Part shown: piece by piece, positions 47,302-61,300 of the stretch | Numbering within the stretch: position 1 is the first letter of the stretch | Layout of the letters: each line of letters starts with the position of its first letter | Assembly: GCF_021223605.1 (NCBI RefSeq) | Contig: NZ_CP075175.1 | Span: forward strand, 124,001 to 188,000 | DNA: 64,000 nt | From: Paenibacillus sp. 481 | GTDB taxonomy: Bacteria; Bacillota; Bacilli; Paenibacillales; Paenibacillaceae | Direction of reading: 5' to 3' | Made by a program: the position numbers and the translations under genes | The notes under the pieces: model-generated | The model's database searches: none | Seen by the model: only the letters and a program-made list of their open reading frames with translations | Told to the model about the DNA's origin: nothing

Positions 47302-48982
47302 TTATTGAGCAGCAACACTGAGTTCATTTACTAAAATGACTCCTTCACCACCATCCTTGGTAGCGCGAACAATCGCATGCACGATAGCACGAGCTGCATC
47401 AGGAGGCACGACACCTTCTTGCTGCAAAGTAATGTAATGGCCATCCGTAGGCTATAGGTGGTCAATAATATTAACCCCAAGATGCCTGTCGTTCTTATCA
47501 TAGAAATCCATATACAATTGTACCTTTGCATTGTTTAGAGACAAGACGTTTAATGATCCTTTGAGTAAATAAGGTTGATTGGGAGTCATTTTGACACTTT
47601 GACTGATTGCCGCAATTCCGTTATGACCAATTCCTTTTCCTTCAATACACTGCACGATCCGATCATTAAACTTTTGGACTTGAAAATGAGCCCGTGCCGC
47701 GCCCCAGTTTTCTTTTTTCCACCCATTCGCGATTTCGTCACCATTACTGAACGATTCAAATGAAGAGTTATGCGTCCTCTCTTTGCTTGTGATATGCTCG
47801 AAATGCAGATCATCTACATACATCGTACCTGTTGCGCCGTCTTTTAGTGAGCGAAGAATCCCGTAAACCTTAACAGCTACTGCGTTCGCAGGGACTTGAC
47901 CTGTAAGGTTGAACGTCATAAAAGTTCCGTTAGATGGCTGTGTGTGTTCTGTTATATTATTCGAAATCCACTTGCCATCCTTGTCGATAAAATCCAAATA
48001 TAATTGAACTGACGCATCTTTTAAACTCTGCAAGGAACAATCCACTAGCACGATAATGCTGTGAAGGCTTTACTGCTAATCGCTGGTTAACAGAAATAAG
48101 ACCATATGCTTTTATTCCTGATCCCGAAAGCTTCCGCATGTTGTTATTTCCATGAGTAACCGTTAATATATTCGCAGTTTACGCTTCCCAAGATCCTATT
48201 TCCCAGATATCTGGCATTCCGTTTCCATTAGGCGCGACCGCCTGAAAATCATAGTTCACTACCTCATTTCGAGAATGTTCATATGAAAGGTTGGCCCCTC
48301 TTACCACGATCATTCCAGCAGCATTATCGTCAACGGCGCGAATCAGGACGTAGATGACTACCGATTTCGCTTTTGCTGGCACGATTCCTGACGTGGACAG
48401 CGTAATAAACGAACCATACGTTAGGGCTTGGTGGTCGATTACGTTTGCTCCAATGAACTCATCATTGGGCCCGAGAAAGTCTAAATACAGCTGCACTTTA
48501 GCGTTTTGCAAATGCTCAATTCCAACAGAGGTGTTCGCCACATAAGGCTTACCAGCTGTAATAGGTACTCTCTGCTTTATTCCTACATACTGGTGAAGGG
48601 ACATGTTTGATGCAGAAACCTTTTGTACATTCCGATTTTCATAGGTGTATGTATGATAGTTAGTCGTTGGTGTTCCCCAGATAGCCTTCTCCCATTTGTT
48701 CACCAACTCTTGATTGACTTGCGCAAAATTAGCGTTCTGCAGCAAGTTAACAGGCGGCACAACGAAATTTTTCAACACGGTCTGATTAATGGTATTCCCA
48801 TTCTTATCACTCGTGAATTTAATTTTGCTGTCACCGTTAAATACTTCGGTTATATTTCCATTCTGGTCGTAACGGTATTGTGAACCACTGCTCGCATATG
48901 CTTGCATGCTGTTAACGGAAATCACACAGATTGATAGAATGAATATCGTTGTGTACCACATCATGTTCTTTATGGTAATCAA
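47302..48982 (-). pseudogene. Decayed secreted YD-repeat/carbohydrate-binding-like gene
   Basis: Reads as one gene broken three times. From TTG 48982 (GGAG eight bases upstream) come a signal peptide (I-F-I-L-S-I-C-V-I-S-V to A-Y-A), one YD repeat (Y-R-Y-D-Q-N-G-N-I-T-E) and a CBM4/9-like sandwich (K-V-Q-L-Y-L-D-F). The frame stops at TAA 48179-48181 but continues in frame (T-A-N-I-L-T-V-T-H-G-N), shifts by one base near 48050, resumes (S-L-Q-S-L-K-D-A-S-V-Q-L-Y-L-D-F) through two more sandwich repeats, meets TAG near 47455, and still reads on to V-A-A-Q at 47302. The first 268 codons could still give a short secreted protein. Confidence 0.75.
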
Positions 48983-48983
48983 C

Positions 48984-50906
48984 TTAATTCTCCGCTCTAT
49001 AGAACTGAACATTATCTGCATATGCCTCACCTATTGCTTGCGAATCCGCAACGACTCGAACAATAACCTTCTTCGTTGTAGGCTGGGTGGTGATCGTTAA
49101 TGCATTTGTCGTCCACTCACCTTGTCTAGTTGAAAAAATAGCCGCACCGTCATAAACAGATTCGTTTCGTTCATTAAACTCCACGGTATCAACATAAACT
49201 ATCCCACCTTTTAAAAGATTCAAAAAATCTGCCTGGAGCACATATTTCGTATTTGGAGATACAGGCAGCACGAAACTCTCAGAAGCTGTACCTACAACCG
49301 GACTAGTAGAATGGAATTTAATTTGCATTCCCTTGTCCTTGGAGTGAGCGTCTATTTTCATAAAGCTACTTAACGTCCAGTGAAGTTCCTGTTGTTCGAA
49401 ATCATGGTTAGGCAGCAAATTGTTCGTTTTGACACGGGACACCCGATTACCCTGCGCATCGTATTTCATATGTATGCGTTCATACATCGTTAACATATCG
49501 GTTAACTGATTGTTCGCATTGTATAGAAACTGTGTCTGCTGTCCGGGACGGCTCACATGAACTTGAACTTGCAGTGCTTGTCCAAAAGATGTATCCCCGA
49601 AGTAAAGCTGCCATCCAAGCTTATATGTACCAAATTGCTGCGGCGCTGTAATCGGAAATTCAAACGTGTAGGCCTCACCAGATTTGAGCTGGATGCCAAG
49701 CTGTGGCTTTATTGTTCCTGCTTGAAAAGATGCAGCCGCGCCTTGTCCATGCAGTGATATGTTATCGCTGCTCCACGTACCCTTCGTTGTATTACGAATC
49801 TGGACGGAAACGGTTCGCTTTCCCCCTTCTGGTATTACTGTAGGAACCGTGTGAGCAACGATTGGCTCATCCTTACTTAGAACGTGTACATTCACGGCTA
49901 GTTTCTCACCAAACCATGTGACCTGTTCTTGTAACATTCGCCAATCTGTCGTATAGACCCCCTTCTTAGGAGGTGCTATCATTGTAAAATGAAATGTATG
50001 TGTATTTCCGTATGTCACCTTGGTGTCGTTAGGCAAAACAATGCGCCCGGTTACTGACAGCGGGTCGCCATCATCCACCGCGCCAAGACGAAACATTTGC
50101 TGCTCAGTCCACTCTGGCATACCCGTGTTTTTAACTGTGACCGAAACAGGATACGTTTCTCCCACTATCATCTTATCGGGAATCGTATGCGACACGATTT
50201 TAGCGGATACATTTTGCTCCGGACCTATGTATAAATCATCAAAGTAGCTGCGGAATTTGCCTGTTGTATTGTTGACATCGTCGTCATCATAAGCGACTAG
50301 CACCTTCTGAATGTACCTTCCTGCTAACGGTGATAAATCTACTTCAACTTGTACCCATTGATTGAGCGGATCTTTACGATGTGCAGGGTGAAGTCGATTA
50401 CCATGAGTATCTGTTACGTGCGCGGCCTCCCGCAGATTCGAACCATCGCTAAAAATAAGATCAACCGCCATTTTGCCGCTATGTGAGCCACCCGCATGGT
50501 AAACCCAATATTTCAGCTTTGTGCCAGCTTGGACAGGCAAATGTAAATGATCGTACAGTTTAAAGTAAATAAAGCTGTTCTCGGTCGTGCTTGTGTCTGT
50601 TCCAGCCACACGATAAAATAATTCACCGCTGCGCGGTGTCAATTCCATATCCCCCTTGTAAACCGTAAAAGCTTCAGGTGGTATGTTTGGAAAGTATCCC
50701 CCAACATTAGAGGATATCTCGGTTTGCATAGCCAGCGCGTCATTGTCATGTGCTTCAAACGTATTGTTAATCGACATGCGTTGCGTGGACTGACCAGCCG
50801 TATTAGCCATACTGACGGGTACAAAGCATGTAGACGTCAATAGGATTAGTACAGTTAAAACACTACTTATTTTTCTTATCAAAATGCTCACATCCTTGTC
50901 TCTCAT
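48984..50906 (-). CDS. Secreted protein with NBR1-Ig-like domains, one YD repeat and a C-terminal beta-sandwich
   Basis: About 640 residues. Signal peptide (I-S-S-V-L-T-V-L-I-L-L-T-S to S-M-A-N); a carbohydrate-binding-like sandwich to ~230 (L-K-Y-W-V-Y-H-A-G-G-S-H-S-G and F-D-D-L-Y-I-G); two Ig-like domains of the NBR1/next-to-BRCA1 kind (V-T-V-K-N-T-G-M-P-E-W-T and V-Q-I-R-N-T-T-K-G-T-W-S); one YD repeat (M-K-Y-D-A-Q-G-N-R-V-S-R); and a final sandwich (F-Y-R-A-E-N end). Likely a cell-surface or secreted glycan-binding partner of the RHS locus. Start is uncertain: ATG 50906 has only TAGGG, and a TTG slightly further in follows AAGG. It is coupled to the decayed gene downstream. Confidence 0.7.
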   Translation of the reverse strand: MRDKDVSILIRKISSVLTVLILLTSTCFVPVSMANTAGQSTQRMSINNTFEAHDNDALAMQTEISSNVGGYFPNIPPEAFTVYKGDMELTPRSGELFYRVAGTDTSTTENSFIYFKLYDHLHLPVQAGTKLKYWVYHAGGSHSGKMAVDLIFSDGSNLREAAHVTDTHGNRLHPAHRKDPLNQWVQVEVDLSPLAGRYIQKVLVAYDDDDVNNTTGKFRSYFDDLYIGPEQNVSAKIVSHTIPDKMIVGETYPVSVTVKNTGMPEWTEQQMFRLGAVDDGDPLSVTGRIVLPNDTKVTYGNTHTFHFTMIAPPKKGVYTTDWRMLQEQVTWFGEKLAVNVHVLSKDEPIVAHTVPTVIPEGGKRTVSVQIRNTTKGTWSSDNISLHGQGAAASFQAGTIKPQLGIQLKSGEAYTFEFPITAPQQFGTYKLGWQLYFGDTSFGQALQVQVHVSRPGQQTQFLYNANNQLTDMLTMYERIHMKYDAQGNRVSRVKTNNLLPNHDFEQQELHWTLSSFMKIDAHSKDKGMQIKFHSTSPVVGTASESFVLPVSPNTKYVLQADFLNLLKGGIVYVDTVEFNERNESVYDGAAIFSTRQGEWTTNALTITTQPTTKKVIVRVVADSQAIGEAYADNVQFYRAEN

Positions 50907-51191
50907 TGTTGCCCTATCTATCATATTTTGTTGTAAGGTTGTTGTCTATGGTGAATATGAGACTAAACTGCGGTCCATGTATTTTCACTGCCCTATTTTA
51001 CTGAGATATGTATAAAAAGACCCTTGGGAACCCCAAAAGTCTTTAAGAAACTTTACACTTGCGAAGTATGGTATTTTAGTAAATACTACTCTAAATCTTC
51101 ACCCTTTATAAACCTGAATTCCCCTAACTTTCATCATCGTTTAATTCTTCGTATATATAAAAGAAGATTATCCGAAGAAAGAAGGTTAAAC
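50907..51191. other. Intergenic stretch between the secreted gene and repeat copy A
   Basis: Contains GTCCATGTATTTT at 50973-50985 (also found upstream of the RHS gene), the terminator at 51014-51044, the decamer AACCTGAATT at 51111-51120 and, from 51125, the left end of repeat copy A. Confidence 0.5.
51014..51044 (-). terminator. Terminator after the Rep module, copy A side
   Basis: Minus strand AAAGACTTTTGGGGTTCCCAA then GGGTCTTTTTATA: a stem with a T run, facing transcription from the Rep gene. Confidence 0.6.
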
Positions 51192-51395
51192 ATGCCTGTC
51201 GTTGTTAAACTGAGAGAAATCCTTGCAGAAAGGAACATGTCACAGCGTGAACTAGCCCGACTTACTGGGCTAAGACCTAACACGATTAGTCACTTATGTT
51301 CAAATGAAGTTGACAGAGTGCATCTAAGCACTTTTGAAGTCATCTGTAAGACGCTCGATATTCAACTTCATGAATTGATCGTCATGGAAGATTGA
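51192..51395 (+). CDS. Small XRE/Cro-type regulator, copy A
   Basis: 67 residues. A single helix-turn-helix: L-A-E-R-N-M-S-Q-R-E-L-A-R-L-T-G-L-R-P-N, then F-E-V-I-C-K-T-L-D-I, the YozG/Cro-like one-domain type common on mobile elements. AAGAAGG lies upstream of ATG 51192; the longer frame back to 51024 runs through a terminator and is rejected. It ends 11 bases from the convergent Rep gene. Identical in amino acids to copy B despite silent base changes. Probably regulates the Rep gene or copy number. Confidence 0.85.
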   Translation: MPVVVKLREILAERNMSQRELARLTGLRPNTISHLCSNEVDRVHLSTFEVICKTLDIQLHELIVMED

Positions 51396-51406
51396 GATAA
51401 ATGTGA

Positions 51407-52252
51407 TTATGCTACTGGTACTTTACTCACAGCACCGACTAATATTGCACACGGAATCGCAATCGCATTTTCCCATTGCTCCGCCGCAACGTTATCGAAA
51501 TCAAGAGTAGGGCGTGTTCTCATTTCTTTTTCAATCTCCCTACGGTAATATCCAGTTACTTGTCGTTGCTCAAGTTCACCGTTCATCATTCCAATAACTC
51601 TTTCGAGTAATTTAAGTTTTAGCTTCTCAAGTGATCCCAAACGAGAACACAGATAATATTTGTTAAATGAGGGAGGATACTGAACCAACACGTGGAGCGG
51701 TATCTTCTCCTTAGGAGCATACACAATTTCAAACCTCGTCAATTCTCCCGATATTTTCTTCCCTTGCTTCTCTGCTCTTTCTAACTTCTTGTCGTAAACT
51801 CTACAGTACCCTGCGACTTGTCGTTGATGCTTCTGATTAGAATATCGAGTCCCCTTCCATGTATGCATATTCCGCCCTGTTAAAGACAGTGTAAACAGTT
51901 CAGTTATGGGTAACGGAATATCAAAGGCTACATCACATCGAACAAACAAAACTTCACGGCATGTTTTCTTCAAAGGCAACAACCCTGACTTGAAATGAAC
52001 TAAACTATCAGGATGACATTCAATTCTTAACAAGTTCTTTCTTGACTTAGGAACAAACGTAAGCTGATAGGAAACATGTAAGTAATGACTTCCATCTCTC
52101 ACATGTAAATGATACTTAAACCCTTTTTCCTGCAAACGCAAGCTAGCATTAAAATGGGTACGTAGAGTTAGATGAAATCGGTTAAAGAAGTCCCAAAGTA
52201 CATCTGTAAAATCTACTACAATTCGGTCAATCGAAACTTGTACGTCTTCCAT
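51407..52252 (-). CDS. Rep_trans-like replication initiation protein, copy A
   Basis: 281 residues, basic. W-K-G-T-R-Y-S-N-Q-K, then Y-C-R-V-Y-D-K-K-L-E-R and E-L-T-R-F-E-I-V are the pattern of Rep_trans/replication initiation factor proteins (G-S-R-x-S ... R-x-Y-D-K ... R-x-E) used by rolling-circle plasmids and some integrative elements. An upstream L-R-I-E-C-H-P and V-R-C-D-V-A-F-D-I-P also fit. The active Tyr cannot be assigned with confidence. Preceded by a GGGGG stretch and an 8-bp hairpin. Convergent with the XRE gene. Confidence 0.6.
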   Translation of the reverse strand: MEDVQVSIDRIVVDFTDVLWDFFNRFHLTLRTHFNASLRLQEKGFKYHLHVRDGSHYLHVSYQLTFVPKSRKNLLRIECHPDSLVHFKSGLLPLKKTCREVLFVRCDVAFDIPLPITELFTLSLTGRNMHTWKGTRYSNQKHQRQVAGYCRVYDKKLERAEKQGKKISGELTRFEIVYAPKEKIPLHVLVQYPPSFNKYYLCSRLGSLEKLKLKLLERVIGMMNGELEQRQVTGYYRREIEKEMRTRPTLDFDNVAAEQWENAIAIPCAILVGAVSKVPVA

Positions 52253-52776
52253 AATCAGCCCCCAACCCGAAATTTTTCAACGAATTTCGGACTATATTAG
52301 AGGGCAAGGTGGCTAGCCTAAAACGTTCCTTACCTGCTTCTATGTAAACTGGCACGTTACCAGAATAATTTTTGACCCTTACACAATAAACAATCGGGAC
52401 ATCCTCTCATTTTGTTGCAATGAATTTTTTTGTTCCTCCCTCACCCTATACATCGTTTTAAATACACAGATTGATGCAATTTATTTCGAAAAAACTGTGA
52501 GAAGGCGAAGATAACAAAAAACAGGTCAATCATGGTGGTATCTGACCATAATCAACCTGAATGTCGTAATGCAATAACGTTATTTAGGGTATAATTGTAT
52601 ACCTCGCTCGTACGTACCACCATTTAAGGAAAATATTATACGGGGCTGATGAGGGTTAAGTTCTTGTGGAACGTGCCGCCTGATTCATTCGGCACTGGGT
52701 GGGGTTAAAAGAAAGACCTTGAGGATTTCCGCCCTCAAGGTCTTTCAACTGTTCCTGTACATTGCAATGATTCTAG
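52253..52776. other. Palindrome-rich non-coding DNA, copy A (candidate origin)
   Basis: ~500 bases without a gene, conserved in copy B. Contains CCGAAATT / AATTTCGG (52267-52290), GGTCA / TGACC, the perfect palindrome AATAACGTTATT (near 52570-52581), GGTATA-ATTG-TATACC (degenerate in copy B), GTGCCG / CGGCAC, and finally the terminator 52711-52746. Several nested hairpins next to a Rep gene resemble a rolling-circle origin. Confidence 0.5.
52711..52746 (-). terminator. Terminator of the orphan immunity gene, end of repeat copy A
   Basis: GAAAGACCTTGAGG / CCTCAAGGTCTTTC, 14-bp stem; minus strand continues TTTTAACCC. Confidence 0.85.
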
Positions 52777-53115
52777 TTAAATTTCTTTAACTTGTTTCAT
52801 ATATTCATCATGGGCCTCCTGAATCTTCTGCCTACATATACGTTCCCACAATTCTTTAAACTTAACTTCCTTCTCTTCATCTTTGTCAATCGGAAACATA
52901 TCCCCCCCAAATCCTACTCTTGCATCTGGATCCGGCACTACCCCATACTCTCCTGCATAAGCCAATTCAAAAGGAGCCTGTGTATAGCTAACATTAGGGC
53001 AATTTCCAGCTAGGCAATGATACCCAGGCTTTCCTAGCCCTTCATTACAACACAATGGGGGCTCAGTAGTATTATTCTCACAATATACTTCTAGTAAAAC
53101 ATGCCTCATTTTCAT
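52777..53115 (-). CDS. Candidate immunity protein of the orphan RHS toxin, Cys-rich
   Basis: 112 residues. Cysteines cluster at C-C-N-E-G-L-G-K-P-G-Y-H-C-L-A-G-N-C, followed by an acidic half (D-K-D-E-E-K-E-V-K-F-K-E-L-W-E-R). No signal peptide. I do not recognise the family. GTGGAGATGG precedes ATG 53115. It follows the orphan toxin by 23 bases on the same strand and ends at a terminator: the normal place for an immunity gene. Confidence 0.6.
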   Translation of the reverse strand: MKMRHVLLEVYCENNTTEPPLCCNEGLGKPGYHCLAGNCPNVSYTQAPFELAYAGEYGVVPDPDARVGFGGDMFPIDKDEEKEVKFKELWERICRQKIQEAHDEYMKQVKEI

Positions 53116-53138
53116 TAAACCATCTCCACTTCATATGC

Positions 53139-53813
53139 TCAATAATCATCATGGGTTGTTATCACTTCAATTACATTAATATCCCCATTAGATTCCTTAG
53201 TGTAAATTACTCTAGCATCACCACGTTTACGTCCAGACCCTTTAATATCCACTGCCCACTGTCCCTTCCTCTTTCCTGAAAGTGCGTGTGCATGTAGACC
53301 CCTTAAATCTCCAGACTCTAAACCTTTAATTGCTGCATCATAACCTTTTTTCGCTTCTGGTGATAACTTCTTAGCAGTTCTAGCCGCTGATTTAGAAATT
53401 GATACATTACACTCTGTATTATGCACCCAAATTCCCAGATCAGTTACATAATACGTGTTGTAATCTGCCACCGTAAAGTTATATACTGTAACTGGCTTAT
53501 CTAGCATAATAAATTCAAGCTTTTCAATCGTTAGATTGCTTCCGTCAGCCTTTTGGAGTTTATCGCCCACCTGGAGTTCATCTGCGAAGACCCAACCCTT
53601 ACCTTCAACCCAGAACGGGTGGTTATCTGTCGTCTCGATGATTTGTTCCCCAACATACAGCTTAATTATATCATCACGTTGGTTACGGTAAAGATTCGTT
53701 ACTTCCTTATAAGCTAATTCACCGTCAGGGTTATTCTCATCCTTAGCAAGAACCATATCTCCGACCTCAATGTCTTCGATATTCTTCTCCCCTTCGTTAG
53801 TTATAAACTTGAT
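53139..53813 (-). pseudogene. Orphan RHS tail: truncated Hint domain plus RelE/ParE-like toxin
   Basis: 5'-truncated frame without a natural start. Coding reads from K-F-I-T-N-E-G-E-K-N-I-E-D-I-E-V-G-D at 53810, matching the Hint of the intact RHS protein just after its C-F-V-A-G-T, and continues through T-T-D-N-H-P-F-W-V-E-G-K-G-W to I-W-V-H-N (Asn at 53418-53420). Beyond that come 92 toxin residues ending R-V-I-Y-T-K-E-S-N-G-D-I-N-V-I-E and T-T-H-D-D-Y, resembling a RelE/ParE-type ribonuclease fold. The IS110 element joins at ~53811. A downstream internal ATG (53756) could still allow expression of a part. Confidence 0.75.
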
Positions 53814-53858
53814 TCAGGGAAGAAAGAAGGTGGCAACTTTTAAGCTACCACCATAGTA

Positions 53859-55097
53859 TCAACTCGCCGCCAATTCGGGTAAAGGGGCGAGTCTATACTC
53901 CGTTTTATTTTTCATCATGCTGTAAATGATATTGACTAACTTTCGCATAATACAGATGATGACTTGCTTCTTCTTTTTGCCTTCACTTAGTCGCTTCTCA
54001 TAGTAAGCGTGGAATAAAGGATTAAGTGGTTTCTTGGACGTTCTAGCCGTCTGAACTTGTCTTACCGCTAACCCCCACAGAACCTTGTTTAATGTCCTGT
54101 TTCCTTGTCGCTGGTTACGCTCTTTACCTCTGCCACCACTACTCATTTGACTTGGCGTCAGTCCTGCATACTTGGCTAGCTTATCAGCACTGGTAAATCG
54201 GGAAATATCACCGATTTCAGCCACAATAGCCGAAGCAGTAACATTATCTATGCCCGTAAACGTGTTCAGTTTGAAGTCTAGCTTCTGCATAATGAGACGA
54301 ATATTGTCCTCAACATCGTTCATCTCACGGTGAACATCACGAATTTGGTTTACATGACTCCGGACTAAGAAATCACGATATTCCTGTCCGTTCCGCTTCG
54401 TATTGCCATCTGCTTGCACACTTTCAAGAATAAGAGCGGCTTTCTTCGTTGAACACACATTGTTACTGTTCTTCCTTAGAAACTCCGCCAAATCTTCCAG
54501 TGTCATGCCCTCCAATAAATACGGTGAAGGATACTCATGCCATACGGCTAACGCTGTTCTCCCATCCACTTCGGAGAAAAACTTGTTGTAGCTGGGATAG
54601 TTGTAGCTTAGTTGGGTATGTAATTGATTCTTGAGCATGACAAGCGTATCTCTCAAGCTATACCGCCGCATCACTAGCTGTTTCAGAATCCAGTAGTCGT
54701 CTTGTGGGTGGGCATTTGGTAATCTATCTAATTCGTCAAGCAATAGTTTAGCAATATTCTCCGCATCCCAACTGTCATGCTTTTCCGTCATAGCATAGCT
54801 TTTACGCTTCCAGTTAGATAAAGCGGCATTAACTTCTTTGACAAGGAAATGATTCTCGACTAGGTAAACGGCTAAGGATCTTCCATAGCCGCCCACGTCC
54901 TCAAGCCCAAATACGATAGTCATTCCGTCTTGAACATGCTTCTTGACCTTACTAATTACCGCTGGAAATGCAGAGGGTTTGTTCTCGAACTCTATGATTT
55001 CCAGCTTCTCATTCCAGCAATTAATAACAACTGCCGTATGTGACCGCTTATGTAAATCAACGCCAACATAAATAAACTGCTCTTTACGATGTTTCAT
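53859..55097 (-). CDS. IS110 family transposase (DEDD recombinase)
   Basis: 412 residues. RuvC-like DEDD domain with D14 (Y-V-G-V-D-L-H-K), E66 (F-G-L-E-D-V-G-G), D108 and D111 (E-K-H-D-S-W-D-A-E); C-terminal Tnp_20 domain F-T-G-I-D-N-V-T-A-S, then Y-A-G-L-T-P-S-Q-M-S-S-G-G with the nucleophilic Ser candidate, and G-N-R-T-L-N-K-V-L-W. All key residues appear present. AAGGGGG precedes ATG 55097. IS110 enzymes use a structured bridge RNA encoded in the non-coding end. Confidence 0.93.
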   Translation of the reverse strand: MKHRKEQFIYVGVDLHKRSHTAVVINCWNEKLEIIEFENKPSAFPAVISKVKKHVQDGMTIVFGLEDVGGYGRSLAVYLVENHFLVKEVNAALSNWKRKSYAMTEKHDSWDAENIAKLLLDELDRLPNAHPQDDYWILKQLVMRRYSLRDTLVMLKNQLHTQLSYNYPSYNKFFSEVDGRTALAVWHEYPSPYLLEGMTLEDLAEFLRKNSNNVCSTKKAALILESVQADGNTKRNGQEYRDFLVRSHVNQIRDVHREMNDVEDNIRLIMQKLDFKLNTFTGIDNVTASAIVAEIGDISRFTSADKLAKYAGLTPSQMSSGGRGKERNQRQGNRTLNKVLWGLAVRQVQTARTSKKPLNPLFHAYYEKRLSEGKKKKQVIICIMRKLVNIIYSMMKNKTEYRLAPLPELAAS

Positions 55098-55222
55098 ATG
55101 ATTTCCCCCTTAGCTTCTTATAGCGATTAGGGAAAAAGAATAGCCGCATCGTCTGTTTAGTATTCTCCCGAAGGGATACATTGAAGGGTAAGCGTGTCCA
55201 TTCTTCCTCATTAATCGCTATA
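55098..55222 (-). ncRNA. Candidate bridge-RNA region of the IS110 element
   Basis: Non-coding stretch directly upstream of the transposase, with 11-bp inverted arms at its ends and internal CTCCCGAAGGGATAC. IS110-group elements encode the guide RNA in this flank. I have not folded it; limits and loops are unproven. Confidence 0.35.
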
Positions 55223-55994
55223 AAATAGCTTGATGTCGTCCTGTTGCCGTAATGCCACCATATTGATACTGACCTTCGTAGAACGCTCTGCGGTCAAGTA
55301 TTCGTTTGACTTGTACTTTCGTGAACTGCTTGCCTTGCTGTGTCGTAAAGCCTTCTTCATTCAGTTGAAATGCGATTTCAGATAACGTCCATTTCAAGTT
55401 CTGTTCCCGTATATCAAAGAGTCGTTTTACTGCTTGGGCTTGCATATCATTAACCTCAATTGACTTATGTCCTTTACGGGCTTTATAGCCAAATGCCGCC
55501 CGTCCTCCTGCATAACCGCCCTGTTGGGCTTTTTTGTTACGCCCTCTGCCTAGCTTGAGGGCGATTTCAAGCCGCTGATACTGGTCAAGCAGTTCCATAA
55601 GACCATTGATAAGAAAATCACTTGGGTCTTTCTTATGGATAGAATAAGTCGGCTGTTCAATGCTCTTTACATCCACACCATACTTCTTGAACTCCCGATG
55701 AACCAACACTTTCACAATATCAGACCGCCATAAACGGCTTGTATGGAGGACAACAACAGCATCATAGGTTCGAGTAGACAGGGCGGTTAACATGCTCTGA
55801 AAGCCGATTCTGTCCACCTCAAGAGCATCCTCATCCACCTTTGCCCCACTAATACCTTCATCCGTAAAGATGTCCTGCAAGTCCCATCCTTGCTCCTGAC
55901 AATAGGAGCAAATTTCATCTTGTTGGTACGCTAAGCTGTAACCGTCTTTTGCCTGTCCACTCGTTGAAACTCTGACATAACCGATGACTTTCAT
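55218..55994 (-). CDS. Serine recombinase (resolvase plus Recombinase domain, short form)
   Basis: 258 residues. N-terminal resolvase domain: I-G-Y-V-R-V-S-T-S-G-Q with catalytic Ser10, then F-T-D-E-G-I-S-G-A-K and H-T-S-R-L-W-R-S-D with the Arg pair; a Recombinase domain follows (G-G-R-A-A-F-G-Y-K-A and S-E-I-A-F-Q-L-N-E-E-G-F-T-T). No zinc ribbon or coiled coil, so smaller than a large serine integrase. The stop lies in the IS110 left arm, so the tail may be trimmed. AAAGGGG precedes ATG 55994, which overlaps the upstream ORF by four bases. Confidence 0.88.
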   Translation of the reverse strand: MKVIGYVRVSTSGQAKDGYSLAYQQDEICSYCQEQGWDLQDIFTDEGISGAKVDEDALEVDRIGFQSMLTALSTRTYDAVVVLHTSRLWRSDIVKVLVHREFKKYGVDVKSIEQPTYSIHKKDPSDFLINGLMELLDQYQRLEIALKLGRGRNKKAQQGGYAGGRAAFGYKARKGHKSIEVNDMQAQAVKRLFDIREQNLKWTLSEIAFQLNEEGFTTQQGKQFTKVQVKRILDRRAFYEGQYQYGGITATGRHQAIL

Positions 55995-56257
55995 ACTGTT
56001 TCCCCTTTAGCAAAGCGTACTTCACTAGAAACTAATGCCTTCGCCAATTTGAGGTGACAAACTTCTGTTCGTAAGTCCATTTCAACACGATGAACGGCTA
56101 ATAGAATATCTTCGATTGCTGTTTGATGACAACGAAATCCTTCCTGAATCGTATAATCTAAGATAGCAGACTGATATGCAATGCAAGTTTCCAATCGCTC
56201 ATTAACAACTGATTCTCTTTCATACAATTGTTCCAGTTTTTCTATTAAGTGACTCAT
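55991..56257 (-). CDS. Small helical partner ORF of the recombinase
   Basis: 88 residues, largely helical (E-K-L-E-Q-L-Y-E-R-E-S-V-V-N-E-R-L-E), with no recognised domain. Ends in an ATGA overlap with the recombinase, so the two are coupled. GGAGGGGG precedes ATG 56257. May be a directionality or accessory factor by analogy; not shown. Confidence 0.65.
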   Translation of the reverse strand: MSHLIEKLEQLYERESVVNERLETCIAYQSAILDYTIQEGFRCHQTAIEDILLAVHRVEMDLRTEVCHLKLAKALVSSEVRFAKGETV

Positions 56258-56297
56258 GCCGTTTCCCCCTCCGTTACGATAACCTGAATTATTGTAA

Positions 56298-56336
56298 CGC
56301 CTAGTAGATACAAATACATTATATATCTACTAAGCG
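56298..56336. promoter_or_regulatory. 13-bp inverted repeat before the recombinase operon
   Basis: CGCCTAGTAGATA (56298-56310) and TATCTACTAAGCG (56324-56336), 12 of 13 bases paired, spacer 13. Lies ~40 bases before the first ORF; candidate recombination site (res/att) or autoregulatory operator. Absent from copy A. Confidence 0.5.
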
Positions 56337-56412
56337 ATACATACAATAACTTTCATCATCGTTTAATTCTTCGTATAATAAAAGAAGATTGTGCGAAGAA
56401 AGAAGGTTAAAC

Positions 56413-56616
56413 ATGCCTGTCGTTGTTAAACTAAGAGAAATCCTTGCAGAAAGGAACATGTCACAGCGTGAACTAGCCCGACTTACAGGGCTAAGACCTA
56501 ACACGATTAGTCATTTATGTTCAAATGAAGTTGACAGAGTGCATCTAAGCACTTTTGAAGTTATCTGTAAGACACTCGATATTCAACTTCATGAATTGAT
56601 CGTCATGGAAGATTGA
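56413..56616 (+). CDS. Small XRE/Cro-type regulator, copy B
   Basis: 67 residues, identical in protein sequence to copy A at 51192-51395; I count about five base changes, all silent. Same ribosome site and the same 11-base distance to the convergent Rep gene. Conservation implies selection to keep it functional. Confidence 0.85.
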   Translation: MPVVVKLREILAERNMSQRELARLTGLRPNTISHLCSNEVDRVHLSTFEVICKTLDIQLHELIVMED

Positions 56617-56627
56617 AATAAATATGA

Positions 56628-57473
56628 TTACGCTACTGGTACTTTACTCACAACACCGACTAATATTGCACACGGAATTGCAATCGCATTTTCCCATTGC
56701 TCCGCCGCAACTTTATCAAAATTAAGACTAGGGCGTGTTCTCATTTCTTTTTCAATCTCCCTACGGTAATATCCAGTTACTTGTCGTTGCTCAAGTTCAC
56801 CATTCATCAGTCCATTAACTCTTTCGAGCAATTTAGGTTTTAGCTTCTCAAGTGATACCAAACGAGAACACAAATAATATTTGTTAAATGAGGGAGGATA
56901 CTGAACCAACACGTGGAGCGGTATCTTCTCCTTAGGTGCATACACAATTTCAAACCTCGTCAATTCTCCCGATATTTTCTTCCCTTGCTTCTCTGCTCTC
57001 TCTAATTTCTTATCGTAAACTCTACAGTACCCTGCGACTTGTCGTTGATGCTTCTGATTGGAATATCGAGTCCCCTTCCACGTGTGCATATTCCGCCCTG
57101 TTAGAGATAGTGTAAACAGTTCAGTTATGGATAACGGAATGTCGAAGGCTACATCACATCGAACAAACAAAACTTCACGGCATATTTTCTTTAAAGGCAA
57201 CAGCCATGACTTGAAATGAACTAAACTATCAGGATGACATTCAATTCTTAGCAAATTCTTTCTTGACTTAGGAACAAACGTAAGCTGATAGGAAACATGT
57301 AAGTAATGACTTCCATCTCTCACATGTAAATGATACTTAAACCCTTTCTCCTGCAAATGGAAGCTAGCATTAAAATGGGTACGTAAAGCTAGATGAAATC
57401 GGTTGAAGAAGTCCCAAAATACATCTGTAAAATCTACTACAATTCGGTCAATCGAAACTTGTACGTCTTCCAT
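56628..57473 (-). CDS. Rep_trans-like replication initiation protein, copy B
   Basis: 281 residues. Differs from copy A at 15 positions, e.g. Gly to Trp in F-K-S-W-L-L-P, Gly to Val in S-R-L-V-S-L-E, and Leu to Pro in K-L-K-P-K-L-L. The R-V-Y-D-K and R-F-E-I motifs are unchanged in both. Either copy could be active. Confidence 0.6.
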   Translation of the reverse strand: MEDVQVSIDRIVVDFTDVFWDFFNRFHLALRTHFNASFHLQEKGFKYHLHVRDGSHYLHVSYQLTFVPKSRKNLLRIECHPDSLVHFKSWLLPLKKICREVLFVRCDVAFDIPLSITELFTLSLTGRNMHTWKGTRYSNQKHQRQVAGYCRVYDKKLERAEKQGKKISGELTRFEIVYAPKEKIPLHVLVQYPPSFNKYYLCSRLVSLEKLKPKLLERVNGLMNGELEQRQVTGYYRREIEKEMRTRPSLNFDKVAAEQWENAIAIPCAILVGVVSKVPVA

Positions 57474-57970
57474 AATCAGCCCCCAACCCGAAATTTTTTA
57501 ACGAATTTCGGACTATATTAGAGGGCAAGGTGGCTAGCCTAAAACGTTCCTTACCTGCTTCTATGTAAACTGGCACGTTACCAGAATAATTTTTGACCCT
57601 TACACAATAAACAATCGGAACATCCTCTCATTTTGTTGCAATGAATTTTTTTGTTCCTCCCTCACCCTATACATCGTTTTAAATACGGAAATTGATGCAA
57701 TTTATTTTGAAGAAACTGCGAGAAAGCGAAGATAGCAAAAAACAGGTCAATCATGGTGGTATCTGACCATAATCAACCTGAATGTCGTAACGCAATAACG
57801 TTATTTAGGGTATAATTGTTGACCTCTCTCGTACGTACCGCCATTTAAGGAAAATATTATATAGGGCTGATGAGAGTTAAGTTCTTGTGGAACGTGCCAC
57901 CCGATTCATTCGGCACTGGGTGGGGGTAAAAGAAAGACCTTGAGGATTGCCGCCCTCAAGATCTTATAAA
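57474..57970. other. Palindrome-rich non-coding DNA, copy B (candidate origin)
   Basis: Counterpart of 52253-52776. CCGAAATT / AATTTCGG at 57488-57511 and AATAACGTTATT are kept; GGTATA-ATTG-TATACC is degraded to one arm and GTGCCG to GTGCCA, which may mean this copy has lost part of its function. Confidence 0.5.
57932..57966 (-). terminator. Terminator of the RHS immunity gene, end of repeat copy B
   Basis: GAAAGACCTTGAGG pairs with CCTCAAGATCTT, one mismatch versus copy A; minus strand continues TTTTACCC. Confidence 0.8.
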
Positions 57971-58351
57971 TCAGGTATCTTTGTTTAGTCTTCCCATTGC
58001 TTCATCAAGTGTTTCGTATTGGATGTTATCATATTCCCAATTCAGGTGACGATTAATAGCCTTAGCCACCTCATCCCAAGTCGGTCGCACACAATCTTCC
58101 AATATTAAATTTATTTCTTTTTCCACCAGTGTCAAATCAAGTTCATTCACTAAGAAAGTTGCTCTGCCATCCAGTATCTTATCTTCTTCTAAAATTGAAA
58201 GTAATCTCTTAGGTGTCATAATCCTAAAATAAAAGTATTCAACACCCTCTGACTCAGCAGTTCCTATATCTGCACTTGCAGGGAGTACAAAATCATCTGT
58301 TATCTCAGGCTCACCACGCAACAGAATTCTTTTTAAAACTGGAACTATCAA
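57971..58351 (-). CDS. Imm8-like immunity protein of the RHS toxin
   Basis: About 126 residues. The layout G-V-E-Y-F-Y-F-R-I-M-T-P-K-R-L-L, A-T-F-L-V-N-E, P-T-W-D-E-V-A-K-A-I-N-R-H and L-N-W-E-Y-D fits the Imm8 family of polymorphic-toxin immunity proteins (F-x-F-x-V-x-T-P ... T-W-x-E ... W-E-F/Y). Start TTG 58351 lies eight bases after GGGGAG; the longer frame to 58459 overlaps the toxin gene. It directly follows the RHS gene. Confidence 0.72.
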   Translation of the reverse strand: MIVPVLKRILLRGEPEITDDFVLPASADIGTAESEGVEYFYFRIMTPKRLLSILEEDKILDGRATFLVNELDLTLVEKEINLILEDCVRPTWDEVAKAINRHLNWEYDNIQYETLDEAMGRLNKDT

Positions 58352-58373
58352 TATAATCACTCCCCATAAATAT

Positions 58374-61300
58374 TTACTCAATTTCAACATGGTAATTCGT
58401 GAGTCTGTTCCCTCTCTTATCAAACGATTCAAAGTTGGCTTCATACACGCCCTTACCATACTTTTTCCCTGTTCTAACTGACTTTAACCCATCTTTGCTA
58501 GTATAGAGCATTCCTCCATCAATCTTCTGTACTTTCGCTCCCTTACCAACAAAATCAATTGATGCATCATATATCAAGTCGGCTGAAACTTTCGCACCTT
58601 GTAAACCATCATTTTTCTTGGATTTCCTAGCCAAATCTGCTAAGTCGGAAGCTGAACCGCAGAACTTATTAATATTATGAACCCAAATCCCCAAATCGCT
58701 TACAAAATAAGTATGGAAGTCAGCAACAGTAAAGTTGTAGACCTTAACCATTTCATCGTGCTTAACGATATTAATCTTATCAATAGTCAAGATATTTCCA
58801 TTACTCTGCTGTAACTTATCCCCCGCATGTAAGTCAGCCGCAAGCACCCAACCTTTACCTTCCACCCAGAATGGATGATTGTCGGTTGTCTCAATGACTT
58901 GGTCGCCTACGGTCAATTCGTAGATGATTTCCTTATCATTTCTATACAGATGCGTAACTTCCTTGTACGCTTGCTCGCCAGTCTCTTCATTCTTCGAGAG
59001 AACCTTATCTCCGACTTCAATGTCTTCGATATTTTTCTCCCCTTCGTCTGTGAGAACCATTGTTCCAGCAACGAAACAATTACATCCCGTTTTAGCCTTC
59101 TGGGCTTTCTTAGCCTTACTTGCCTGATAAACATTTGTAGCTGCCTTACCTGCTTTAAGCACTTTTCCAGCTGGTATTAAAGTAGTAGCAATCGCCATAC
59201 CCTTTTGTGCCATAGAGGTGTTCGGATCAGATATAACTCGCAGATCATCCAGCACTAGGAAATTGGCTGTGCTTACCGCTGCTCTTCCAGCTACCCTTGC
59301 TCCCTTTTTCACACCGTTCCAAGCATTTTTTGCAAACTGTGCTACGTTTCCTGTTGGATCCACAAAAATCAACGGGTTGTTCAATACATACGTATACAAG
59401 TTCAAACTAAGCGGGCTATCTATTTCACCCTCATACGTATCCTCGTTAATAAAACGACCGATACTCGGGTCATACCATCTTTCACGCAAATATTGCAAGC
59501 CTGTAGTTGCATCCCAGTACTCGCCTGAGTAGCGGAAGATGTTAGGAACTTTTTCCTCAGGCGTATTTAATGGGTTACCCCATATATCATACGTGTACTT
59601 GTTTAGTACATTACCCTGCTCGTCGCGAATTTCAGTGACGTCGCCGTGTCCGTTCGTAATGTAATACTGCATGCCTTTACCCGGAACTTGACGCGCTAAA
59701 ATATCATCGTTCGCATCGTACACATAACCTGCCAAAATGGTAACTGAACCGTTTTCTACTTTAGCTTCAGCTACGATTTTGTCGTTATCATCATAATAAT
59801 AACGTGTTGTCTCACCGTTTTCCGTACGCTCGACCATCAGGTTGTCGCCATTGTAGCGATAAGTAACGGTCTTACCTTCATCTGTTGTAACAGATGTCAG
59901 ACGATTTCGTTGATCATACGTGTAACTGCCACCCTTAATTTCAGGTGTATGATCCGTTGTTAGGGTACTCCGATTATCCCGATTATCGTACGCATACGTC
60001 TCGTTAAACTGGCTGTTTGTTTGAATACGGTTCAGCTTATCGTAAGTATACTGATACCCTGCACCATTATCATTTTTTCCAACAATGTTACGGTTCTTAT
60101 CATAATTGTACGTGTATTGGCCAAATGTGTTTCCGCCCAATTGCTGCTGAATATCGATCATGTTCAGACCATCGTACTTATATGACTCCGTGTAACCATT
60201 TGATCCACTAAGCTTGGACAAAAATTTAGAACGTTGATCGAACTCGTACGTAAACTGAGATAATGCATTCCCACTTCCATCCATAACTGAAAGTTTGGTT
60301 GGTGTTGGATAATCAAATAAATAGTCAATGCTAGATGTTAGATTAAAGCTTCCAGCTGATACACTTTGTTTCGTCCGCAAGCCGCGTCCTTCATAATCGT
60401 AGCTTAGCATAATACCGTCGTGATACGTGATCGTCTTCAGTTCACCTGTCGGATGATAGTTGTAATTCGTGGTACCTGTGTTGTCTTTCATCGAAAGTCG
60501 CTTGCCTGCGGCATCGTACGCATAGGTGATCGTCTCATCCGCTGTTATACTGCTTGTCAATAAATCACGATTGTTATATTCGAACTGCTGTGTCTGACCT
60601 TTACGATCAACGGAACGAACTACATTATCGTTTGCATCGTAGTACAATTTCTTACTCTGCTGCTTCGGATCAAGCTGTTCAACTAATCGTCCGATCTCAT
60701 CGTACTTCTTCTGCACGATATTTCCATCCGGATATTGCACTTCGACCATATCGCCAGTCAAATTGTATTTATATTTGGTCGTCTTTCCTTCGGCATCCGT
60801 TACAGCAACTAGACGACTCAAAGCATCATACTCATACTTCGTCACATTGTTATTGCCGTCCGCCATGCTTGTAACATTACCTGCATAGTCATACACATAA
60901 CGAGCCAGTTCGACATTGCCACCAGGCTTTACTTCTTCTTTAAGCAGTAATCTTCCTAGTACATCATACGTTTCTTTAAACGTGTTATTCGCGCCATCGA
61001 TCGTCGTTTTTGTGTTTGCTCCATCATCATATAAGAAGCGAGTTGCCTCATAATGACCCGGCTTCTCTTCAATGACTCGTCCCCATGCATCGTATTTATA
61101 ATGTGTAGAGGAACCGTTGGCATTTCCTTTAACAATGACGTGATTAAATTCATCATAAGTATGGTTTGCAGAGCCCCGTCCGTTCGTTTCTTTAATAAGA
61201 CGGCCAAACGGATCAAACAACCATTCAGATTGCTCTCCGGTTGGAGAGGTTACCGTTACTTTATTTTGAGCATCATCGTACACGATTTTCGTCTGTGTAC

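Follow-up and report, generated by a model that had tools for sequence, protein, structure and literature searches.

The window analyzed here, a 64,000-nt stretch of the Paenibacillus sp. 481 genome (NZ_CP075175.1, positions 124,001 to 188,000), contains an rhs polymorphic toxin gene whose Hint domain and toxin tip form one end of a 5.25-kb unit at window positions 53795-59045. Judged from sequence comparison, this unit is very probably an RNA-guided, site-specific mobile toxin-cassette element that carries a plasmid-type Rep and probably moves as a circle. The element starts inside rhs, at the Hint start, and ends just after a gene encoding an IS110-family transposase, at a second copy of a short docking sequence; beyond this right junction lie a further Hint-toxin tail and the immunity gene that goes with it. 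The order of its parts is Hint or RHS arm, toxin, immunity gene, noncoding block, Rep, helix-turn-helix (HTH) regulator, serine recombinase, and IS110 transposase. With less assurance, we lean toward a broader reading in which such units form a family of RNA-guided toxin-cassette replicons, that is, plasmid-like circles with IS110 and a guide RNA that would dock in frame at one of three polymorphic-toxin addresses.

Organization of the element

The features of the element and its surroundings, read from the rhs scaffold downstream, are the following (ORF, open reading frame).

59046-63692, minus strand: rhs scaffold (N-terminus, RHS/YD repeats, and RHS core) that receives the cassette, ending at the putative crossover core; Pfam and NCBIfam RHS repeats and core detected in 58374-63692
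59431-59442, minus strand: unoccupied class-1 docking site GGATACGTATGA in the RHS core of the same rhs gene; the site is occupied in other genomes
59037-59051, minus strand: left junction, where Hint begins, with the class-2 docking site ACAGACGAAGGGGAG; putative core GA at 59044-59045
58374-59045, minus strand: Hint domain and toxin tip carried by the element and continuing the reading frame of the rhs scaffold (PT-HINT in rhs; computed phase)
57971-58378, minus strand: immunity gene of the active toxin (Pfam Imm8, E = 4.6e-20)
57474-57966, minus strand: noncoding block with terminator and palindromes, separating immunity gene and Rep; many loci have a similar block
56628-57473, minus strand: Rep copy 2, predicted rolling-circle initiator fold of the RepD type (structure model and Foldseek)
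56413-56616, plus strand: HTH (Cro/C1-type) regulator copy 2 (HTH_26, E = 1.9e-18)
55991-56257, minus strand: 88-aa ORF that overlaps the start of the recombinase gene; some other units have relatives of it, in varying positions
55218-55994, minus strand: serine recombinase, 258 aa (Resolvase, E = 5e-25; TP901-1 integrase 3bvp, E = 4e-13)
55136-55206, minus strand: guide-RNA-like hairpin, internal loop with CCCTTC and AACAGACGA; structure covaries in class-3 relatives
53859-55097, minus strand: IS110-family transposase/recombinase, 412 aa (NCBIfam IS110, 217.6 bits against a cutoff of 140; IS621 8wt6, E = 2e-14)
53787-53798, minus strand: right junction, AACGAAGGGGAG after donor-left ATCAAGTTTATAACT; putative core GA at 53794-53795
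53139-53793, minus strand: orphan Hint domain and toxin tip, displaced remains of the previous cassette (PT-HINT in ORF 53139-53756; phase fits the active gene)
52777-53115, minus strand: presumed immunity gene of the orphan toxin, from its position (44% homologue in locus L035; no family match)
51125-52745, minus strand: remnant of an older unit, with noncoding block, Rep copy 1 (51407-52252, minus strand), and HTH copy 1 (51192-51395, plus strand), from similarity to copy 2

The detection of RHS_repeat, PT-HINT, and Imm8 places the locus among the Rhs polymorphic toxins, its toxin role being predicted from domains. The transposase carries both domains of the IS110 family (PF01548, DEDD RuvC-like, E = 3.6e-22; PF02371, Transposase_20, E = 1.9e-20), to which it belongs, and, when aligned to IS621, retains acidic residues at four of the aligned positions, along with a Ser of the C-terminal domain, which we take to be the catalytic positions. 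The element exceeds the definition of an IS110 element as a transposase with noncoding ends alone, since its edges enclose toxin, immunity, Rep, HTH, and serine recombinase genes. For both toxins of the window, the distance from the core to the toxin stop codon is a multiple of three, and excision of 53795-59045 would therefore restore the phase of the displaced toxin. No known RNA family was found in 48000-60000 (Rfam, 0 matches up to E = 1).

Units in related genomes and their docking sites

For comparison, 45 loci with Rep relatives were fetched and searched with the parts of the window, and 60 stretches carrying the serine recombinase were fetched, with loci drawn from one genome per species. 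Out of 104 IS110 clusters, 65 were kept as distinct full-length units, after dropping duplicates, incomplete genes, and copies that lack a serine recombinase upstream. Many of the Rep loci present the noncoding block, Rep, HTH (on the opposite strand), serine recombinase, and IS110, and then RHS or Hint homology again, and tandem units are seen in some of them (e.g., L023 and L024, three IS110 copies). It follows from this recurring order that the IS110 gene of the window is not a stray insertion. The serine recombinase occurs in 58 of 394 genomes of the family (E up to 1e-60) and the window-type IS110 in 10 of the 394, with one match each (E up to 1e-170, four candidates scored per genome). 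Within this IS110 clade, all ten copies have the class-2 loop described below and nine have the right junction, the gene being truncated in the tenth; the window copy has both.

In 58 of the 65 units, one of three docking sequences lies at most 190 nt 3' of IS110. These define class 1, in the RHS core (29 units), class 2, at the Hint start (8 units), and class 3, in pretoxin sequence (21 units), with seven units in no class; class-1 units with GGATACTTATGA were counted as class 1, not as Hint, and the Hint match of L050 was regarded as chance, which leaves L050 unclassed. In 51 of the 58 fetched stretches, a same-class site differing from the donor type was found upstream (class 1, 27/29; class 2, 8/8; class 3, 16/21), typically at the start of the variable tip of the toxin gene.

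The edges of the three classes can be read directly. In class 2, as seen in the window, rhs reads ..CTCACAG/ACGAAGGGGAG and the sequence 3' of IS110 reads ..ATAACTA/ACGAAGGGGAG. The corresponding class-1 edges are commonly ..TTTATTAATGA/GGATACGTATGA in the RHS core and ..TTTATAAACTA/GGATACGTATGA 3' of IS110, and those of class 3 are commonly ..TGA/GGGGACGGG just before the toxin and ..ACAACTTA/GGGGACGGG 3' of IS110. In the 5.69-Mb genome of the window, ACAGACGAAGGGG is found once, at the left junction, and in eight translated class-3 orphans the toxin frame continues in phase from the docking codons.

Docking sequences are also conserved at the codon level. Across 49 RHS segments (less than 95% identical), the codons GAG GAT ACG TAT are fixed at 96-100%, nearby conserved residues are less fixed (commonest codon 67-76% for Asp and down to 33% for Pro), and some two-codon residues farther along also reach 94-96% for the commonest codon. 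Protein-level scans gave 33/34 for GATACGTAT, 17/18 for GAAGGGGAGAA, and 20/27 for GGGACGGG. This conservation may stem in part from the choice of loci that carry the element. The class-3 address, GAGGGGACGGG, encodes EGTG, and EGTG is found on several scaffolds, including RHS with PT-TG, Phage_GPD baseplate-hub-like proteins (one of them just below the Pfam cutoff), subtilase-RHS, and others.

Some unclassed units deserve separate mention. In L050 (12605-13880), an IS110 placed beside the class-2 clade is followed by a different Hint-start sequence, AAAGACGGTGAACGG, perhaps representing a fourth docking class. L110 (11703-12935) and L132 (11556-12779) combine IS110 and serine recombinase with no recognized docking sequence, and may represent further classes or variants.

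The guide-RNA-like hairpin

The sequence between the serine recombinase and IS110 genes contains a hairpin that opens into a large internal loop. On its 5' side, the loop of the window copy has CCCTTC (55183-55188), the antisense of GAAGGG; on its 3' side it has AACAGACGA (55149-55157), whose last 8 nt equal the window's own docking strand, the two guide segments overlapping at GA. Structural support comes from 14 class-3 sequences, in which 96.4% of cells are paired and 8 of 16 pairs show two-sided changes for the helices that we had named ourselves. The pairing measures and covariation score were equaled in none of 500 shuffles, and structures slid along the same alignment drop to 36-45% paired. 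The stacked RNA alignment of the three classes was not used for pair counts, its class-2 hairpin being one column off.

When leaders were scored against the three docking classes, the best-scoring class was the leader's own in 23 of 29 class-1, 7 of 8 class-2, and 19 of 21 class-3 units. At each unit's own junction, moreover, the mean antisense match of the right half is 6.55 nt, vs. 5.58 nt upon permutation (0/200 as high). Some class-1 leaders have two loops, and short leaders show one guide loop. On these comparisons, the class-level match between guide and target is taken as real. In the window leader, an 11-nt match to the class-1 docking strand, ATTAATGAGGA (55201-55211), is also observed, and is weaker in other class-2 leaders.

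Docking class on the IS110 and serine recombinase trees

Protein trees were obtained for 57 (IS110) and 63 (serine recombinase) of the 65 units, after too-short frames were dropped; both are quick trees with some long branches. On the IS110 tree (57 rows, 50 labelled), the docking classes require 2 changes, which is the minimum (shuffled mean 21.2), and on the serine recombinase tree (63 rows, 56 labelled) they require 9 (shuffled mean 22.9). When both trees are restricted to the same 48 labelled rows, the classes require 2 changes on IS110 and 8 on the serine recombinase. Target specificity hence travels with IS110.

Cassettes shared between genomes

Orphan toxins of one genome are active tips in another, as seen in the pairs L034-L100, L044-L042/L058, L108-L113, L123-L141, L125-L098, L131-L146, and L138-L026. 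In the class-3 pairs L034-L100 and L044-L042/L058, similarity begins at the docking site. For L034-L100, it amounts to 91% over 2.5 kb, a length limited by the search window, and to 88% over a 4.8-kb span that begins at the left docking site and reaches the right junction; since the L034 contig stops at that point, this pair says nothing about the right edge. Alignments of class 1 and 2 pairs begin some bases to the left of the site, as donor and target are alike there, and those of L125-L098 and L131-L146 begin inside the cassette. Furthermore, the block comprising the serine recombinase and IS110 is 92-93% identical among P. xylaniclasticus, Brevibacillus borstelensis, and another genome of the window's genus, and this similarity stops at the right junction. 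The ends of the L034 contig share 23 nt at 91%, and a 6.8-kb contig labelled as a plasmid (L031) is not circular by a terminal-overlap test. On plasmids, the serine recombinase had two relatives at E up to 1e-40, and tblastn of the fetched stretches gave no match to IS110, RHS, or the window Rep.

The Rep module and the replication slot

The first-pass annotation of this DNA had described a 1.62-kb Rep module repeated behind two toxin-immunity pairs, and this repeat is borne out: the copies at 51125-52745 and 56347-57966 are 95.6% identical over 1,620 alignment columns, with one 1-nt gap. Each comprises an HTH gene (plus strand), a 281-aa Rep (minus strand), and about 490 nt of noncoding DNA, and lies directly 3' of an immunity gene (52777-53115 or 57971-58378) that follows a Hint-toxin tail. 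Terminator stems at the start of the module are found in both copies, and similarity between them stops at 51125. Copy 1 would most plausibly represent the front of an older unit from which the recombinase genes are missing. The boundaries drawn in that annotation were, however, too narrow, for the unit is the larger 5.25-kb element, including the serine recombinase and IS110; the overlooked sequence between the copies (53859-56257) encodes the IS110 transposase, the serine recombinase, and the 88-aa ORF, all of which recur as unit parts in related genomes. Generation of both copies by one simple tandem duplication was considered and rejected, given that the toxins, immunity genes, and Hint arms differ and that the same edges occur in many genomes.

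No third copy of Rep was found in the 5.69-Mb genome (E up to 1e-3), and the nearest Rep outside it, in P. alvei, is 90% identical. Rep occurs mostly near toxin cassettes, because 26 of the 45 Rep loci show RHS or Hint homology in the fetched stretch and 17 more contain the pretoxin docking motif (motif presence only), with L040 and L053 having neither.

A structure model of Rep, based on a 35-sequence alignment (pLDDT 89.9), has RepDE 4cwc as its best Foldseek match (E = 5e-11, TM 0.68-0.70), and a profile search recovers the same structure (E = 7e-10); the score against Pfam Rep_trans is 22, below the cutoff of 29.6. The modeled protein hence conforms to the fold of rolling-circle replication initiators. 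Distant relatives (26-27%) are encoded on two small plasmids, the 27% one on a 5.9-kb Geobacillus plasmid. A phage origin of Rep was rejected, with no match in phages and none confirmed in viral contigs.

This Rep family is present in 27 of the 65 units and is hence optional. Seven of the other 38 units were inspected, and six of them have another protein, in some cases of replication type, between the immunity gene and the serine recombinase: a Phage_CRI/G2P-type protein (L137), a look-alike without Pfam match (L111), DnaD/HTH_36-type proteins (L138, L141), and a winged-helix protein with no assigned role (L099, L144). Such substitutes would suit a plasmid-like stage in which replicons can be exchanged. 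On one B. subtilis plasmid (3.96 kb), a 40% identical serine recombinase is found together with an HTH gene and a protein of the Rep family (E = 1.5e-10). The noncoding block that precedes Rep, with its palindromes, is a possible replication origin and no more than suggests autonomous replication from a cognate origin.

Two further observations concern this slot. The L137 unit lies in the same genome as the window (C1:219914-220687) and is a second, class-1 unit (RHS core) in which the Phage_CRI-type replication protein replaces this Rep. In addition, about 120 nt of the noncoding block (57696-57815 and its counterpart in copy 1) are conserved in 95 copies in the fetched set, duplicate genomes included, and 49 of the 95 are followed by a Rep frame within 600 nt; this part is possibly a replication origin.

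Mechanism and alternative explanations

In the proposed mechanism, an RNA made upstream of IS110 would expose two guide segments, each pairing with a different strand of the docking site, and would thereby direct the IS110 enzyme there. The circular element would recombine into rhs, fusing the new tip in frame and pushing the old toxin-immunity pair downstream as an orphan, and excision would reverse the insertion. Rep or its substitute probably copies the excised circle, and the serine recombinase may resolve or excise it, these two roles being the least certain.

The first-pass annotation had instead proposed that homologous recombination, with Hint DNA upstream as the 5' arm and the Rep module downstream as the 3' arm, swaps toxin and immunity genes, in which case IS110 and the serine recombinase would be chance insertions. 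Both arms are truly repeated, and the available part of a report on Salmonella describes recombination between main and orphan rhs genes (PMC3967940). We nonetheless consider this explanation very unlikely. The edges are short fixed sites whose class tracks IS110, one of the three following in 58 of the 65 IS110 genes with an upstream serine recombinase; the similarity in L034-L100 and L044-L042/L058 begins at the docking site, not within an arm; and just 27 of 65 units have this Rep family. What stands of the earlier interpretation is that toxin, immunity gene, and Rep lie within one unit, that orphans are retained, and that Rep has a plasmid-type fold; recombination between homologous arms does not.

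The serine recombinase might itself integrate and excise the element at the docking site, with IS110 as a passenger or regulator. Its conservation beside IS110, its relationship to the TP901-1 phage integrase, and the B. subtilis plasmid that pairs a 40% relative with a Rep-family protein all fit this possibility, which we regard as unlikely because the target class changes 8 times on its tree vs. 2 on that of IS110 (48 rows), the target-matching loop sits in the IS110 leader, and 258 aa is short for a large serine integrase, as these are usually longer. The arrangement could alternatively reflect ordinary IS110 insertions that favor rhs genes and lie close to toxin genes by coincidence. Site specificity is known for IS110 elements, according to the accessible parts of two reports (PMC11208160, PMC11187229), but this explanation is hardly credible: in the 65 counted units, IS110 is bordered on its left by the serine recombinase instead of the left half of the target, and in the window the left half-site is found about 5 kb away in rhs, with toxin, immunity gene, and Rep between the half-sites.

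Several results weigh against an RNA-guided, circular element. Regarding the hairpin, further pair types in class 3 are unremarkable (57/500 shuffles), free folding of the class-3 alignment partly pairs both guide segments together, and the window hairpin folds barely better than shuffles (z -1.31). Regarding guide-target matching, the target strings used to score leaders were picked after the sequences had been seen; the window leader, the sole class-2 exception, has a class-1 score of 17 that exceeds the 16 for its own class, because of the 11-nt match outside the internal loop; and 6 of the 29 class-1 leaders are not uniquely class 1, partly because the AACTGAGG loop of most class-1 leaders resembles the class-3 target. 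The second, variable loop of class-1 leaders fits the local target over 6 nt in just 1 of 7 readable units, and the order of guide segments is reversed with respect to the reported IS110 element, if the direction of the transposase sets the top strand. IS110 and target class share ancestry, so that the classes amount to few independent events, and branch support on the IS110 tree is 84 for class 1 and 91 for class 3. Lastly, no exact terminal overlap of at least 15 nt was found in eight short contigs (L028, L031, L034, L037, L044, L046, L061, and L063), and the sampling of one genome per species yields no strain pair with and without the element.

Relationship to known systems

The putative RNA-guided toxin-cassette element resembles IS110 insertion sequences with a bridge RNA or seekRNA, such as IS621 and ISEc21, in its transposase family and in the noncoding, RNA-like sequence upstream of the gene. 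As far as the accessible portions of the reports go, it also shares guide segments that match opposite target strands and overlap at the core (PMC11187229, PMC11208160), the bridge-RNA guides of IS621 pairing with opposite strands and including the core (PMC11208160), and an RNA of 70-100 nt can suffice for IS110-family elements (PMC11187229, PMC11208160). Unlike IS621 and ISEc21, the window element carries about 4 kb of cargo (toxin tip, immunity, replication, and serine recombinase genes), its left end is coding and continues the frame of the host gene, and it targets toxin-delivery genes. Short leaders have a single guide loop (two are seen in some class-1 leaders), guide order is apparently reversed, and the transposase has 412 aa vs. 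328 for IS621.

As in Rhs and other polymorphic toxin loci, for which partial texts were available (PMC3967940, PMC3482391), a full-length gene with a variable toxic tip is accompanied by a linked immunity gene and by displaced tips downstream. The tip exchange described in these sources involves recombination between shared sequence or with standalone cassettes (PMC3967940, PMC3482391), whereas the cassettes examined here carry recombinases and have fixed edges. The Rep fold and the 27% relative on a Geobacillus plasmid recall rolling-circle plasmids of the pT181/RepD type (Rep_trans), from which the element differs in being chromosomal, in placing Rep inside a toxin cassette, and in having other genes fill that slot in other units. 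A mobile element of Burkholderia thailandensis likewise holds contact-dependent growth inhibition (CDI) toxin genes (PMC6350997), with no mention of tip exchange in the title and abstract start of that report.

The arrangement also evokes integrons. Integrons capture gene cassettes at a fixed site, newest first, with older ones stored behind, and the element would work in a like manner. The element differs from them in using an IS110 recombinase with a guide-RNA-like leader and in that each cassette carries its own enzyme; no tyrosine recombinase match was obtained among the ten window proteins scanned, and no search for attC was made. Judging from titles and abstract starts in the open literature, with subscription papers mostly outside this coverage, no report joins IS110 or a guide RNA with polymorphic toxin exchange. 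We call the composite a categorically new kind of element, each of its enzymes belonging to a known family.

A change of toxin tip that retains frame and matching immunity has so far been ascribed to recombination between shared sequences. If the present reading is true, tip exchange would become a programmed, possibly reversible process run by a dedicated RNA-guided recombinase with fixed addresses; excision could re-arm the cell with an older toxin, and the shared GAGGGGACGGG address could let one warhead pool serve several delivery machines. The system would also offer a natural case of an IS110 recombinase that inserts several kilobases of cargo into coding sequence; its guides are apparently single-loop, and several clades that would have been retargeted in nature are at hand for comparison.

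Beyond the element, two downstream ORFs on the same strand (48179-50924) contain single stretches that resemble YD repeats by eye, and are perhaps the remains of another RHS-type gene.

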